Virus record (IMG/VR): IMGVR_UViG_3300033141_003211
Coordinates: 1-38,747 of that record
Origin: a virus
Strand: one strand, 5' to 3'
DNA length: 38,747 bases
Shown: positions 262-38,686 of the stretch, in pieces
Layout: every line of letters starts with the position of its first letter
Numbering within the stretch: position 1 is the stretch's first letter
Notes under the pieces: model-generated
What the model was told of the DNA's origin: nothing
The model's input: the letters and a program-made list of their open reading frames with translations, nothing else
Database searches by the model: none
Made by a program: the position numbers and the translations under genes

Positions 262-1248
262 TTATAATAGCGTTCTATTGCCCTCTATTCTCTTGCTTGC
301 GATCTCGCAGTATTCGGGGTTTAACTCTATCCCTATCCAGCGCCGTCCCAGTTTTTCCGCAACAACCGCTGTAGTTCCTGCGCCCATAAACGGGTCAAGA
401 ACAAGACCATTTTCTGGGCAACCTGCCTTGATACAGATTTCGGGTATATCTGGCGGAAAAACGGCAAAATGTGCGCCCTTAAAGGGCTTCGTAGAGATAG
501 ACCAGACTGTTCTTTTGTTGCGACCTTTAGGATTATAGGTTTCTCCGAGAGTTTTTGACCCGCCCCGCCTAAAAAGTATGTTATTTGCCTTATAGTTTTT
601 ATTTCTCACCTGTTGTGTCCACTTTTCTTGCGACCAATCCCGACTATGAGGTTCAAACTGCTGCTCAAAATAATACTTTTTCTGCTTCACAAAAAAGAAA
701 ATCTTTTCAAAATCTACCGTAAACCTATCTTTGACCGACTCTGGCATAGCATTTGGCTTATACCAGACTATTTGATTGCGCAATATCCAACTTCTATCTA
801 TCATCCCGATTGCAAACCGCTCCGGTATCATATAAAGAGACTTTTGTGGCACCTTAACTCTTTTTGGTGCTTTCCTCTTCATAAAATCAACTGTTCCTCT
901 ATTAGAAAACTGTTTTCTGGATGATGAAGAAACACCACCACCTCTCCAATTTTGACCATATGTATCACCAAGATTTACCCAAACCGTTCCTGTCGGCTTC
1001 AAAATCCTATAGACCTCACTAAAAATCTGCCACAACTTCTCCAGATATTCATCAAATGTTGGTTCTAACCCTAGTTGTCCCTCAATTCCATAATCCCTTA
1101 ATGTCCAGTATGGTGGCGATGTTATCACACAATCTACATTTTCATCGGGGAATCTACGCAAAAGTGCTAAAGCATCTCCGTTATACAAAATGCCCTTGTC
1201 AGCCTCATAATATCGGTTCTCTTGCGGAAATTTAGCCTTCCAGTCCAT
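262..1248 (-). CDS. DNA methyltransferase, circularly permuted (N4-cytosine or N6-adenine)
   Basis: This enzyme should transfer a methyl group from S-adenosylmethionine to an exocyclic amino group in DNA. The catalytic motif TSPPYW lies at about residues 43-48 and the SAM-binding motif DPFMGAGT near the C terminus (about 285-292). Catalytic motif first and SAM motif last is the beta-class order. SPPY is most common in N4-cytosine enzymes, but some N6-adenine enzymes have it. I chose the ATG at 1248 because AAGGGG lies just upstream and it falls 10 bp after the previous stop. A start at 1275 would overlap the previous gene and has a weaker site. No restriction nuclease is adjacent, so this looks like an orphan methylase that shields phage DNA from host restriction. 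Confidence 0.85.
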
Positions 1249-6065: not shown

Positions 6066-6117
6066 AATATATAGCCAAATTTCGTTTTGTCAAGTCCTCC
6101 CGCCCATCACTATGGAC
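6066..6117 (-). promoter_or_regulatory. Sigma-70-type promoter with upstream B-type palindrome
   Basis: TTGACA at 6088-6093 with TATATT at 6066-6071 and a 16-bp spacer (TATTAT also fits at an 18-bp spacer). Eight base pairs upstream is GTCCATAGTGATGGGC at 6102-6117. This is a near-palindrome of the same type as at 38-53 and 38419-38434. It should drive the T5orf172, initiator and helicase genes. Confidence 0.7.
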
Positions 6118-12203: not shown

Positions 12204-12282
12204 TGGAGGCGGGGGGAATTGAACCCCCGTCCGGCTGGTGGCATTGCGCCCCTACCAGTCGTCTACCCCTACGGTCGCCCCC
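12204..12282 (-). tRNA. tRNA-like RNA 2 with enlarged anticodon loop
   Basis: The 79-base minus-strand sequence folds as a cloverleaf. Acceptor arms are GGGGGCG and CGCCTCC (7 bp, one G-U). The D arm is CGT/ACG with loop AGGGGTAG. The T arm is GGGGG/CCCCC with the canonical loop TTCAATT. The anticodon stem CTGGT/ACCAG carries a 14-base loop, AGGGGCGCAATGCC, instead of 7 bases, and inside it GGC and GCC can pair. No anticodon can be assigned. The T-arm sequence GGACGGGGGTTCAATTCC also resembles tmRNA 3' ends, but there is no tag frame. It begins 8 bp after the holin gene, so it is probably processed from the late transcript. The 3' end reads CCTCCA and no separate CCA follows. Whether it is charged is unknown. 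Confidence 0.6.
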
Positions 12283-34615: not shown

Positions 34616-35033
34616 TATTATCCTCGCCGTCCACCTTGCGTATCGGTATCTCTTTTATCTCTATCGTTATATGCTTATGTTCTATTGGCTCACCTTCTTC
34701 ATCTCGGCGGCGCCATATACCCAATGCTTCAAGTATTCTCGCTGCTGCCGTCCACTGCGGAGTTTTCTCGGCGTCCCTTATTCGCTTACCCAGAGCGGCG
34801 CCCCAGATTATCTGCAATAGCCTCTCCTCGCACTTGCTGTATCCTGCGGACAGGGCATTATATACCCGCCGTAATGATTTGCTGGTGCTGTCCTTCCCCT
34901 GCGACAATGCACGGGACAGGTAACTAATATCAACCCCCACTCGCAAGGCTATACCCCGCAAAGACATACCCATCTCCGCAAGGCGCTCCATCTCCGCAAG
35001 TTTCTCATCTGTTATTTTAGACCGACTTGCCAT
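34608..35033 (-). CDS. terS: Terminase small subunit (putative)
   Basis: A 141-residue protein. The N-terminal 55 residues form a helix-turn-helix (GMSLRGIALRVGVDISYLSRAL), the DNA-recognition domain of many small terminases. The middle forms two long helices, and the C terminus is charged. It overlaps FolE by 17 bp and TerL by 8 bp. I chose ATG 35033; the longer reading from 35072 would overlap FolE further. Position before TerL is the strongest evidence. It joins the deazaguanine module to the packaging genes without a gap. Confidence 0.75.
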   Translation of the reverse strand: MASRSKITDEKLAEMERLAEMGMSLRGIALRVGVDISYLSRALSQGKDSTSKSLRRVYNALSAGYSKCEERLLQIIWGAALGKRIRDAEKTPQWTAAARILEALGIWRRRDEEGEPIEHKHITIEIKEIPIRKVDGEDNSE

Positions 35034-35595
35034 ATCCCACCATTGATAAGAATTCTTGCCGACAAGATTCATTTTCCTTAAAGCATCCCAGCATAACAGA
35101 TGTCACCATTACCGAGTTTTGTTTTGCCACCCCACGCGCTCGCATACATAAATGGACTCCTTCAACAATTACTCCGATACCTTTCGGCTCCAAGCACTCT
35201 ATTATTGCTTCTGCAATCTGTTTAGTCATACGTTCTTGTATTTGCAACCGCCGAGAATAGATTTCAACAATCCGAGCCAACTTAGAAACTCCAATAATCC
35301 GTCCATTGGGGATATAACCAATATGGACACGCCCATAAAAAGGAATCATATGATGTTCACAAGTAGAAAAAAACTCTATATCTTTCAAAATTATCATTTC
35401 ATCAATTGGGCTTTCAAATGTTTTACAAACCTTTTTGGGGTCCTGGTTATAACCGCTAAAAAGCTCACGCCAGGCATTTACAACCCTTTTAGGAGTTTCA
35501 ATCAATCCCTCACGGGTTGGATCATCCCCCAAGTATGCAATAATATCCCTTATTTTATCTTCAACATCTTGTGTATTTGTAATGACAACCGCCAT
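35017..35595 (-). CDS. folE: GTP cyclohydrolase I
   Basis: A 192-residue enzyme that converts GTP to dihydroneopterin triphosphate, the first step to preQ0. The zinc ligands are visible: C79 in FSTCEHH, H82 of the same block, and C150. The ETPKRV motif and GRIIGVSKLAR block match bacterial FolE. There is no host folate gene nearby; its neighbours are QueE, QueD, QueC and DpdA, so it serves the deazaguanine pathway. It overlaps QueE by 46 bp and TerS by 17 bp. AAGGGGTC precedes the start. Confidence 0.93.
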   Translation of the reverse strand: MAVVITNTQDVEDKIRDIIAYLGDDPTREGLIETPKRVVNAWRELFSGYNQDPKKVCKTFESPIDEMIILKDIEFFSTCEHHMIPFYGRVHIGYIPNGRIIGVSKLARIVEIYSRRLQIQERMTKQIAEAIIECLEPKGIGVIVEGVHLCMRARGVAKQNSVMVTSVMLGCFKENESCRQEFLSMVGYGKSV

Positions 35596-36116
35596 TTTGA
35601 CCCCTTTTCTAAAACCTTCTCAACTGTTTCCTTTATATTTTTCATACAACAAGGTTGTAAAAAGTAATATTCAAAATCACTATCTAAATAAATATCTAAA
35701 TCCTGTCCTTCATATACAACTTTCAACTCATCTCCTTTGCGAACCACCCATTTTTTATCAGAGTGTAAGATTTTAGGAGATACTGTTATCCAATCAATCC
35801 CCCTTTTTAATGGAATCGTCCCATTTGTCTCAATCGCTATATAATATCCAAGTTGTCTTAACCTCCGTAACAAAACAGAATCAATCTGTAAAGCAGGCTC
35901 CCCCCCCGTCAAAACAACAAAATCGGTCGGGTATTCTTTAACCGCAAATATAATATCATCAACACTCATAAACACACCTTCCCAATGGTTAGTATCACAA
36001 AATGGACACCGCAAATTACACCCCGAGAACCGAATAAATACAGCGGGGCGCCCTACCCAAAATCCTTCACCCTGCAAAGAATAGAAAATCTCATTTATCT
36101 TGTATCTCCCGCTCAT
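35550..36116 (-). CDS. queE: 7-carboxy-7-deazaguanine synthase (radical SAM)
   Basis: A 188-residue radical SAM enzyme that contracts 6-carboxy-tetrahydropterin to 7-carboxy-7-deazaguanine. The iron-sulfur motif CNLRCPFC (Cx3Cx2C) is at about 33-40. SLQGEG at about 13-18 binds substrate and TGGEP at 70-74 binds SAM. The length is on the short side of the family, but all motifs are present. It overlaps QueD by 26 bp and FolE by 46 bp, so the module is translationally coupled. Confidence 0.93.
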   Translation of the reverse strand: MSGRYKINEIFYSLQGEGFWVGRPAVFIRFSGCNLRCPFCDTNHWEGVFMSVDDIIFAVKEYPTDFVVLTGGEPALQIDSVLLRRLRQLGYYIAIETNGTIPLKRGIDWITVSPKILHSDKKWVVRKGDELKVVYEGQDLDIYLDSDFEYYFLQPCCMKNIKETVEKVLEKGSKWRLSLQIHKMLKIK

Positions 36117-36435
36117 AAATCGCTATATTCCCTTCTGATTCTTGAACTATACACTTATATGCTTGCGGAACTTGCTCTACTACCCATCTTGCCAAGTTCT
36201 CCGCCGTTGGATTAAAAGGCAAAACGTCATTCAAATTTTTATGGTCTAATTTATCGTGTATCCGTTTCTTGATCTTATTAAAATCTACTACCATTCCATT
36301 CTTATTCAATTGTTTCGCCCGACAAAAAATTGTTATTTTCCAATTATGCCCGTGTAAATTGGAGCATTTACTATTATAATCAAGTTTCAAACGATGACTA
36401 CCCGCAATCTCAAATGTTTTTATTACTTCAAACAT
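36091..36435 (-). CDS. queD: 6-carboxy-tetrahydropterin synthase
   Basis: A 114-residue enzyme that turns dihydroneopterin triphosphate into 6-carboxy-tetrahydropterin. Zinc ligands are H14 (SHRL) and H28/H30 of CSNLHGH; C24 is the catalytic cysteine. DH at 64-65 and a late Glu complete the active site. The length is typical. It follows QueC after 3 bp. The gene, like the rest of the module, looks AT-richer than the structural genes. Confidence 0.93.
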   Translation of the reverse strand: MFEVIKTFEIAGSHRLKLDYNSKCSNLHGHNWKITIFCRAKQLNKNGMVVDFNKIKKRIHDKLDHKNLNDVLPFNPTAENLARWVVEQVPQAYKCIVQESEGNIAIYEREIQDK

Positions 36436-36438
36436 TCT

Positions 36439-37089
36439 CTATACCTCATATTTAGTGGGGTCAAGTAACCCCGCATCCCTAAAAGCCTGCTTTCTTTTTA
36501 GACAAGCAGGACACACCCCACAATGTAATGCTCCTCCATCATAACAACTCCATGTGCTATTATAATCAATTCCCAAACCAACACCAATCCGTATTAAATC
36601 AGATTTTCGTTTATCACTAAAAGGAGCACTTACCTTAATACGTCTATATGTCCCTAATTGCATCGCTACCGACATTGCTTCAATAAAATCTACCTTACTA
36701 TCTGGGGATTGGTCTTCCCGATGATTGGCTATCATAACATATTGATAACCATATGACTCTGCGATTCCAGCCGCAACTGCCAAAAAGATACCATTACGAA
36801 ATGGAACATTCACTTTTTTTACTGCATCAGTATCGCTTCTATTTTTAGGTATATCTCCTCCAGATAATAGTATACTACTCCTAAAAAACCTATCAAAAAA
36901 ATCAAGATCAACTATCATATGCGCTATTCCCAACTTACTTGCATGATAAGACGCACATCTTAATTCATTGTTATTATTCTTAGAACAATAACGATACGAT
37001 ATCGCCAAACCTATCCTACTTACAAAAGCATACAAAAGTGTAATAGAATCAATCCCACCTGACAATATAATTACAGAATCCTTCTTCAT
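36439..37089 (-). CDS. queC: 7-cyano-7-deazaguanine (preQ0) synthase
   Basis: A 216-residue ATP-dependent enzyme that converts 7-carboxy-7-deazaguanine and ammonia to preQ0. The P-loop SGGIDS is at 10-15. The C-terminal zinc site has C182, C190, C193 and C196. VPFRNGIFLA in the middle is typical. It is a plain QueC, without the extra domain of Gat-QueC fusions and without QueF nearby, so the likely DNA base is preQ0 itself. It overlaps DpdA by 4 bp. Confidence 0.93.
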   Translation of the reverse strand: MKKDSVIILSGGIDSITLLYAFVSRIGLAISYRYCSKNNNNELRCASYHASKLGIAHMIVDLDFFDRFFRSSILLSGGDIPKNRSDTDAVKKVNVPFRNGIFLAVAAGIAESYGYQYVMIANHREDQSPDSKVDFIEAMSVAMQLGTYRRIKVSAPFSDKRKSDLIRIGVGLGIDYNSTWSCYDGGALHCGVCPACLKRKQAFRDAGLLDPTKYEV

Positions 37090-37877
37090 GATATATTCTC
37101 CAGATACAATTGATACCCTACCCAGGACAGATAATTATATTGCCTTAAATGAGAACCATTGATACGTCCTTTTGATTTAACTACGAACTGCGCGATTTGA
37201 CTTCCATAAAATTTACAAATCATTCTCCGATTTGCCGCTGCCAACCAAGTTTGGGAGTCAACACTATCAAATTTAAACTTAGTTAAATGCAACCCAGATG
37301 TAAATCCCAATCCGTGCACCTTCACCCCTTTTGAGTGAGCCTTATTTATCAATGTGGGTAAGATTTTTACTGGTGTTTTTTTAGTCGTCAACCCGGCAAT
37401 GGCAACATAATCATAATCCTCAAGTAAATTATCAAAAAAATCAACCCTACAACTCGGATGCCAAACCGGTATACTTCTCCATCCTACCCGCTTCTCTAAT
37501 CGTTCTCGCAATTTTATAGTTTCTTTAACTCCTATTATATCATAAACATCTACCTCAAAATAATGTCTAATCCCCAACTCCCGAACAAAATCGCCATACT
37601 TATCCACATAATCTTCCCAATCCATCCTTTTTTTACCCTTAATAAAAGTAAACCCCCCCGAGTCCAACATAAGATCCTTAAAAATACCTTTTTGATAAAA
37701 CTCAACTTGCCATTTCTTCACTGTAAGAAAACTTTCTAACACATAAATATTCATTCGAGTTACCGCTTCATATACATTTTCACTCAAGGAAATACTTTTA
37801 TCTTCAATAAATTGCCTAATCGCATCAGGATTAACCAAATCAAAATGGCTACCTAATGCTGCTATATACAACCTCAT
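37086..37877 (-). CDS. dpdA: DpdA-like DNA deazaguanine transglycosylase
   Basis: A 263-residue relative of tRNA-guanine transglycosylase. LDSGGF at 71-76 and EVDVYD at 108-113 hold the likely catalytic aspartates; GLGFT at about 189-193 lies at the barrel's base-binding end. In DpdA-carrying phages this enzyme replaces guanine by a 7-deazaguanine in DNA, which blocks many restriction enzymes. The adjacent complete preQ0 pathway strongly supports a DNA rather than tRNA substrate. It lacks the usual TGT zinc site and is shorter than bacterial TGT (about 370). It overlaps the ParB-like gene and QueC by 4 bp each. Confidence 0.85.
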   Translation of the reverse strand: MRLYIAALGSHFDLVNPDAIRQFIEDKSISLSENVYEAVTRMNIYVLESFLTVKKWQVEFYQKGIFKDLMLDSGGFTFIKGKKRMDWEDYVDKYGDFVRELGIRHYFEVDVYDIIGVKETIKLRERLEKRVGWRSIPVWHPSCRVDFFDNLLEDYDYVAIAGLTTKKTPVKILPTLINKAHSKGVKVHGLGFTSGLHLTKFKFDSVDSQTWLAAANRRMICKFYGSQIAQFVVKSKGRINGSHLRQYNYLSWVGYQLYLENIS

Positions 37878-38359: not shown

Positions 38360-38382
38360 ATATTCCTCCATTTTACGTCTAT

Positions 38383-38434
38383 AATATAATAATTTTTGCG
38401 GAAAAGTCAAGAGGGAGCGTCCATAATGATGGAC
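38383..38434 (-). promoter_or_regulatory. Promoter of the ParB-DpdA-Que-Ter operon with B-type palindrome
   Basis: TTGACT at 38405-38410, TATATT at 38383-38388 (16-bp spacer; TATTAT also fits at 18). Eight base pairs upstream is the perfect palindrome GTCCATCATTATGGAC at 38419-38434. No other clear promoter lies between here and the structural genes, so it may drive the whole late run. Confidence 0.7.
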
Positions 38435-38436
38435 GG

Positions 38437-38464
38437 ATAATAATAACCCCCGATAGCACGGGGG
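38437..38464 (-). terminator. Terminator of the tRNA-like RNA unit
   Basis: CCCCCG-TGCTAT-CGGGGG (38447-38464) is a perfect 6-bp stem followed by TTATTATTATCC on the minus strand. It begins 6 bp after the tRNA-like 3' end and separates that RNA from the ParB operon promoter. Confidence 0.75.
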
Positions 38465-38470
38465 CTTGTC

Positions 38471-38586
38471 TGGTGGGAGACAGGATTTGAACCTGCAAAC
38501 CTCCGCCCCTAACCGCAAAATATATCAATATATTCTGCAGGGGCAGGCGCCCTTGGAGCCCAATTCCCCACTCTGGCACTCCCACC
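38471..38586 (-). tRNA. tRNA-like RNA 1 with a long hairpin in place of the anticodon loop
   Basis: A 116-base minus-strand element with tRNA hallmarks. The acceptor stem is GGTGGGAG/CTCCCACC (8 bp, then A). The D arm is CCAG/TTGG with loop AGTGGGGAA. The T arm is GCAGG/CCTGT with loop TTCAAAT. The middle does not form an anticodon arm. A short stem CTCC/GGAG encloses AAGGGCGCCT and then a long hairpin (GCCCCT...AGGGGC with an A/T-rich inner stem and TG loop). I could not find any seven-base loop with U33. It sits in its own promoter-terminator unit. It may be a tRNA with an insertion, a decoy, or a regulatory RNA. The structure is seen; the function is unknown. Confidence 0.6.
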
Positions 38587-38590
38587 GGGG

Positions 38591-38626
38591 GAGTCCTACT
38601 CGGTAGTCTGGCTACCTTTCGGACTC
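38591..38626 (-). ncRNA. 5' hairpin with loop-E-like internal loop
   Basis: GAGTCC/GGACTC and GGTAG/CTACC stack as one hairpin with internal loop GAAA on one side and GAGTA on the other. This combination matches the loop E (bulged-G) RNA motif. It lies at the predicted transcription start and four bases before tRNA-like RNA 1. It could protect the 5' end, guide processing, or bind protein. Confidence 0.55.
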
Positions 38627-38633
38627 TAAATAT

Positions 38634-38686
38634 ATAATAAGCACAATTGTCATCCTGTCAAGCCCCTGCGTCCATAATGATGGACT
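38634..38686 (-). promoter_or_regulatory. Promoter of tRNA-like RNA 1 with B-type palindrome
   Basis: TTGACA at 38656-38661, TATTAT at 38634-38639 (16-bp spacer), and GTCCATCATTATGGAC at 38671-38686, nine base pairs upstream. The same sequence is at 1-53 because of the terminal repeat. The predicted start falls near 38627, exactly before the 5' hairpin. Confidence 0.75.

Follow-up and report, generated by a model that had tools for sequence, protein, structure and literature searches.

A phage RNA resembling tRNA-Pro with a buried anticodon, and a candidate tmRNA domain without a tag region in the same genome

The window analysed here is an entire IMG/VR virus record, a phage genome of 38,747 bases in which a 114-base terminal repeat indicates circular assembly. 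It contains, on the minus strand, a short transcription unit whose product, RNA 1, appears from its sequence to be a derivative of tRNA-Pro with its anticodon locked in a hairpin, and which is therefore probably unable to decode. A further RNA of the same phage, RNA 2, seems to be a second non-decoding tRNA mimic, namely a tmRNA reduced to its tRNA-like domain ('TLD-only').

The RNA 1 transcription unit and its surroundings

The elements of the RNA 1 unit, and the neighbouring promoter with which it is compared, are as follows.

38670–38685, minus strand: palindrome GTCCATCATTATGGAC, 8 nt upstream of the −35 box of the RNA 1 promoter
38634–38661, minus strand: strong sigma-70-type promoter, TTGACA-16-TATTAT, with 11 of 12 matches
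38591–38626, minus strand: 5′ hairpin GAGUCC-GAAA-GGUAG-CCAGA-CUACC-GAGUA-GGACUC, 36 nt, z −4.1
38579–38586, minus strand: 5′ strand of the acceptor, GGUGGGAG, forming 8 perfect pairs with 38472–38479
38555–38578, minus strand: remainder of the 5′ half according to the Rfam alignment, i.e. U8, D arm (CCAG/UUGG, loop AGUGGGGAA), G26 and the anticodon-stem strand CUCC
38514–38554, minus strand: 41-nt insert in the anticodon stem, between tRNA positions 30 and 31
38471–38513, minus strand: tRNA-Pro-type 3′ half, i.e. loop UUAGGGG (38512–38506), stem CGGAG, variable loop GUUU, T arm (38496–38480), acceptor strand CUCCCACC and A
38445–38466, minus strand: intrinsic terminator of the unit
38381–38434, minus strand: second copy of the palindrome (38419–38434) and promoter of the ParB-like gene and the 7-deazaguanine operon

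The promoter and the terminator bear out the isolated transcription unit described in the first-pass annotation, the strand of which is corrected here to minus. The 5′ hairpin was likewise confirmed; it opens the transcript at the predicted start (approximately 38626), and is followed by CCCC and then by the body of RNA 1. Its internal loop, GAAA/GAGUA, resembles a loop E (bulged-G) motif. The unit is situated at the arbitrary point at which the circular map was cut.

Almost all of the genes of the phage lie on the minus strand, and its sigma-70 promoters, AGGAGG-type ribosome sites, DnaB-like helicase and tmRNA-type RNA give it the look of a phage of bacteria. No close relatives of its major capsid protein were found in viral contigs. 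Downstream of RNA 1, a ParB-like gene heads an operon for a queuine-tRNA-ribosyltransferase-like protein, QueC, QueD, QueE and GTP cyclohydrolase. The compact cluster at 35017–37877 (minus strand), consisting of the TGT/DpdA-like protein and these four enzymes, probably serves 7-deazaguanine DNA modification, by analogy with known clusters; the TGT-like protein itself yielded neither a close relative in viral contigs nor a Pfam match.

The palindrome, GTCCATMATKATGGAC, is found at 38419–38434 and 38670–38685, and also at 37–52 by way of the terminal repeat, with a weaker match at 6102–6117. A search allowing up to three mismatches returned 8 matches, as against 0.37 expected. Read off the sequence, its distance from the −35 box of the ParB-like gene's promoter is the same 8 nt. 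A single phage regulator probably uses the palindrome as its operator and, because the site occupies the same position at both promoters, RNA 1 and the ParB-like gene probably share that regulator. Proximity and this common palindrome were the only indications found of a tie between RNA 1 and the 7-deazaguanine enzymes.

Structure and ancestry of RNA 1

The body of RNA 1 comprises 116 nt (38586–38471, minus strand; nt 1 is window position 38586 and nt 116 is 38471), and is predicted to be stable, with a z score of −4.5 and none of 200 shuffled sequences being equally stable. It scores 32.5 bits with the Rfam tRNA family RF00005, above the gathering cut-off of 29 (E=1.3e–5 when all families were searched with 129 bases), and the match includes the acceptor, D and T arms. 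No call was made by ARAGORN at its default settings, and Rfam applied to the whole window also missed the RNA. When introns were allowed, ARAGORN made one call at this site and none in 60 dinucleotide-shuffled windows. The identity offered, a tRNA-Arg(gcg) with a 35-nt intron, was rejected on account of a stem mismatch and of the 3′ half, which is that of a tRNA-Pro. Weak Rfam matches to tRNA-Sec, manA and U12, all under the cut-off, were also set aside.

In the RF00005 alignment, the acceptor is formed by G2–G8 and C108–C114, U9 corresponds to tRNA position U8, and the D stem CCAG/UUGG, with the D loop given above, is followed by G26. The anticodon stem CUCC/GGAG is interrupted by a 50-nt insert, and is followed by the variable loop GUUU and the T arm GCAGG-UUCAAAU-CCUGU. 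U8, A14, G15, G18–G19, A21, G26 and the T-loop UUCAAAU thus occupy tRNA-like positions, and an additional pair, G1–C115, extends the acceptor to 8 bp. This alignment agrees with the earlier claim that acceptor, D and T arms are kept with standard elbow bases. For the D arm, however, the claim was not upheld by folding of the RNA on its own: nt 8–40 are rearranged (helix 8–12/36–40), the D stem has a probability of approximately 0, and the minimum free energy is −56.2 kcal/mol, as against −45.0 kcal/mol for the cloverleaf. The D arm is a prediction of the covariance model only.

The 3′ end can be read in two registers. In the Rfam register, the acceptor of 8 bp carries G−1:C73, as in tRNA-His. 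In the register given by homology to tRNA-Pro, the final ACCA is A73-CCA and is partly paired with the 5′ GGU. A histidine-type acceptor was considered, and the 8-bp helix fits it, but the ACCA and the tRNA-Pro homology provide the other reading.

The derivation from tRNA-Pro is argued chiefly from the 3′ half (nt 74–116 of the body). In a comparison with 209 called tRNAs, the best score of this half was 29 against a tRNA-Pro and 19 against any other tRNA; the score of 29 belongs to the tRNA-Pro of Streptomyces phage Alone3, which had been brought in by BLAST, and the best tRNA-Pro score without it is 23. With the insert removed, the best annotated phage matches of RNA 1 were mostly tRNA-Pro genes of unrelated phages, all of them on the 3′ part. 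Phage tRNA-Pro genes, such as those of Alone3 and Bacillus phage P59, share with RNA 1 the 3′ half from anticodon loop to acceptor strand, including the T arm GCAGGUUCAAAUCCUGU and a loop of the form UUNGGGG. RNA 1 differs from them in its 41-nt anticodon-stem insert, its 5′ half and its location outside any tRNA cluster, and its acceptor, GGUGGGAG/CUCCCACC, contrasts with their C1:G72 acceptor. The 5′ half has no tRNA relative, the 209 called tRNAs included, and is not like tRNA-Pro in sequence. Measured against bacterial tRNA-Pro, RNA 1 has the 3′-half homology but not C1:G72 together with A73: G1 pairs with C72 in the Rfam register, and A73 is present only if ACCA is the tRNA end.

A hairpin had been said to replace the anticodon loop. 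The loop is not absent, since the UUAGGGG of tRNA-Pro remains, but it is buried in a long hairpin, as that description had it. A stretch of the insert, GCCCCU (38544–38539, nt 43–48), pairs with AGGGGC (nt 77–82), which includes the anticodon, with probabilities of 0.69–1.0, and an AU-rich hairpin lies within the insert at 38538–38515. Although the letters of the loop are kept, a seven-base loop on a five-pair stem is not presented, the loop being both paired and split off by the insert. The inability of this tRNA-like RNA to present an anticodon, as first proposed, is accordingly supported by the sequence.

Deletion of nt 33–73 was the sole single deletion tried that gave a canonical anticodon arm (CUCCG-UUAGGGG-CGGAG) in which every stem pair is formed, U33 is present and position 37 holds a purine. 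An equally good arm was obtained in 4% of shuffled middles, so this result is weak by itself, and the 3′-half homology is the stronger argument. The shortened RNA is called tRNA-Pro(agg) by ARAGORN. The first-pass annotation had said that detection by Infernal of a tRNA bearing an intron and a clear anticodon would speak against it; this is in part what emerges once the 41 nt are taken out, but the acceptor is not of the bacterial tRNA-Pro type.

Two other known classes invite comparison. tRNA-Sec (RF01852) shares an 8-bp acceptor and a 5-bp T stem with RNA 1, but the match reaches 20.4 bits against a cut-off of 47, and there is no UCA anticodon. Intron-bearing tRNA genes (archaeal, with a bulge-helix-bulge, and bacterial, with group I introns) resemble RNA 1 in having an anticodon-arm insert that pairs with the anticodon loop. 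The insert of RNA 1 is too short for group I, the geometry is a 10-nt bulge, 6 pairs and a 4-nt bulge instead of 3-4-3, and the host looks bacterial.

No homologue of RNA 1 was found by DNA similarity, by four DNA patterns (the T arm; the palindrome plus −35 box; a His-type acceptor with a long insert; and the insert-loop-T-arm architecture) or in phages with related gene clusters. The last of these patterns gave two matches, an ordinary tRNA-Pro and a stretch read as the 3′ half of a tRNA-Pro. A search with GTP cyclohydrolase identified 53 phages with related clusters, and no RNA similar to RNA 1 was seen in the 50 of these that were searched. As no homologue of RNA 1 was found, it offers no covariation and hence no proof of selection.

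RNA 2 and TLD-only RNAs in other viral contigs

The second RNA lies at the end of the lysis operon.

12204–12282, minus strand: RNA 2, a tmRNA tRNA-like domain without a tag region (G3:U70, A73, GGxUxGACG, CGGACG)

RNA 2 is 79 nt long, with a 14-nt loop at the place expected for the tag region. It scored 48.8 bits with the Rfam tmRNA family RF00023 (cut-off 47), or 40.2 bits if only 106 bases were searched, and 67.2 bits with a TLD-only model, which was itself built with RNA 2 included. It thus combines G3:U70, A73 and the tmRNA signatures with the lack of a tag region, by which a TLD-only tmRNA is recognized. G3:U70 is the alanine identity pair.

A precedent exists in mycobacteriophage DS6A, for which a 'TLD only' tmRNA has been described (PMC4131195, PMC11915505), and which RNA 2 resembles in having the tRNA-like domain of tmRNA and no tag region. 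According to the work of Mao et al. 2009, as cited in PMC4131195, a DS6A-like molecule strongly inhibits tmRNA, perhaps by titration of SmpB. RNA 1 shares with the DS6A molecule only the general idea of a non-decoding tRNA upper half: it is without the tmRNA signatures (G3:U70, GACG, CGGACG), and the TLD-only model matches its T arm only, at 7.9 bits.

Viral contigs were scanned with a pattern for the short form of tmRNA. The scan returned 114 stretches, and 25 distinct sequences besides RNA 2 qualify among them as TLD-only candidates; one of these (L060) is doubtful, and L062 is a likely copy that was dropped by the filter and is absent from the alignment. The set of approximately 25 distinct sequences, of 64–91 nt, consists of RNA 2 and L062, L073, L074, L076, L080, L083, L085, L091, L102, L105, L109, L110, L112, L116, L118, L121, L127, L144, L154, L158, L162, L163, L166, L168 and L171. 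A mostly paired acceptor was demanded in their selection, and the pairing of the acceptor is, of course, no evidence in itself. G3:U70 was not a selection criterion, and it is kept in 25 of the 26 aligned sequences. The pairs neighbouring G3:U70, and helix 2, vary on both sides in a compensatory manner.

A stricter pattern, applied to 257 Gb of prokaryote genomes, gave four matches. One is a clear TLD-only RNA (L214, from a Mycobacterium MAG); two of the other three were discarded for lack of a matching acceptor strand and the third for pairing at only 6 of 7 positions. SmpB was found in none of 12 viral records bearing a TLD-only RNA, several of which are fragments, as would be expected if a host factor is used.

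Several further observations were made in these records. The phages of L154, L158, L166 and L168 also hold more than 20 tRNA-model matches each. In L121, an odd tRNA-like RNA (987–1064, minus strand), also present in L209, lies beside the TLD-only RNA (1072–1148); it has a 6-pair anticodon stem, a loop without U33 ('tRNA-???' in ARAGORN) and acceptor mismatches. An apparent partial tmRNA (34.4 bits with the TLD-only model) is located at approximately 1501–1554 of L217, a phage with a 7-deazaguanine cluster.

Possible roles of RNA 1

The explanation that we tentatively prefer, while holding it to be somewhat short of an even chance, is that RNA 1 mimics the upper half of tRNA without decoding. 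RNA 1 would be transcribed from its host-type promoter and controlled by the regulator that also acts on the adjoining ParB-like/7-deazaguanine operon; its acceptor/T-arm half would fold like that of a tRNA, while the long hairpin would keep the anticodon inaccessible. As a competitor or sponge, it might then occupy a reader of the tRNA upper half, the candidates being enzymes of tRNA processing or CCA addition, a synthetase, EF-Tu, or a defence that modifies or cleaves tRNA without reading the anticodon loop. Competition for such enzymes, one of the roles suggested at first, is possible. Least likely among those suggestions is a decoy role against anticodon nucleases, since such enzymes require an exposed anticodon loop and the loop here is hidden. 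A tRNA-targeting defence of another kind is provided by Septu, for which PMC13096335 describes cutting of the variable loop of tRNA-Tyr.

It is unlikely, though not markedly so, that RNA 1 is a relic: a gene for tRNA-Pro, or the 3′ half of one picked up at an attachment site, that was broken by insertion and is out of use. The homologous block, which spans the anticodon loop and everything 3′ of it, is of the extent typical of tRNA attachment sites, the 5′ half is unlike tRNA-Pro and no homologues were found. Nevertheless, promoter, terminator and helices are intact, and the 8-bp acceptor is perfectly paired despite differing from tRNA-Pro on both strands, which is unlike a decaying copy. A live attachment site is also disfavoured: no integrase was identified among the phage proteins scanned, and no near-exact copy of the part from anticodon loop to T arm occurs in the genomes of 84,980 species.

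We consider it distinctly improbable that RNA 1 acts as a small regulatory RNA, by antisense pairing or by binding to a protein of the phage, with tRNA-like features that serve only stability or processing. Its own promoter, the palindromic operator in common with the next operon and the stable alternative fold of nt 8–40 would suit such a role, which would, however, leave the match to the tRNA model and the homology to tRNA-Pro unneeded. More improbable still is a genuine tRNA-Pro(AGG) gene from which a short insert is removed (intron-like, or in the manner of the intervening sequences of bacterial 23S rRNA) to give a decoding or nicked tRNA: the canonical arm and ARAGORN call obtained on deletion of nt 33–73, and the position of both predicted junctions at bulges beside the insert-loop helix, are countered by an insert far below the size of group I/II introns, by bulges of 10 and 4 nt around 6 pairs in place of the archaeal 3-4-3 bulge-helix-bulge, by the bacterial look of the phage, by an acceptor without C1:G72 and by the failure to see any splicing enzyme in the phage. 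We know of no route in bacteria for removing such a 41-nt insert. Nor is a need for decoding visible, as CCU, the codon read by the buried anticodon, makes up just 18% of the proline codons of the phage and is not enriched.

The presence of a tmRNA-domain mimic in the same phage makes the mimic strategy more plausible for RNA 1, but does not prove it. The wider proposal that the phage uses both RNAs, the locked tRNA-Pro anticodon and the tag-less tmRNA domain, to tie up host factors whose recognition of tRNA is confined to the upper half (e.g. SmpB and alanyl-tRNA synthetase, RNase P, EF-Tu or a tRNA-targeting defence) is more doubtful than the reading of RNA 1 as a mimic, and is offered as speculation.

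Decoding is the usual explanation for phage tRNAs. RNA 1, with a tRNA body, a helix-locked anticodon and its own promoter, would, if the present reading is true, represent a tRNA put to a non-decoding use. RNA 2 is of broader importance, given the approximately 25 further TLD-only sequences in which the alanine identity pair is conserved. In PMC4131195 and PMC11915505, TLD-only tmRNA is named from one phage, DS6A, to which these candidate viral sequences may now be added, and with them the question of whether blocking or hijacking of ribosome rescue is common among phages can be put to the test.
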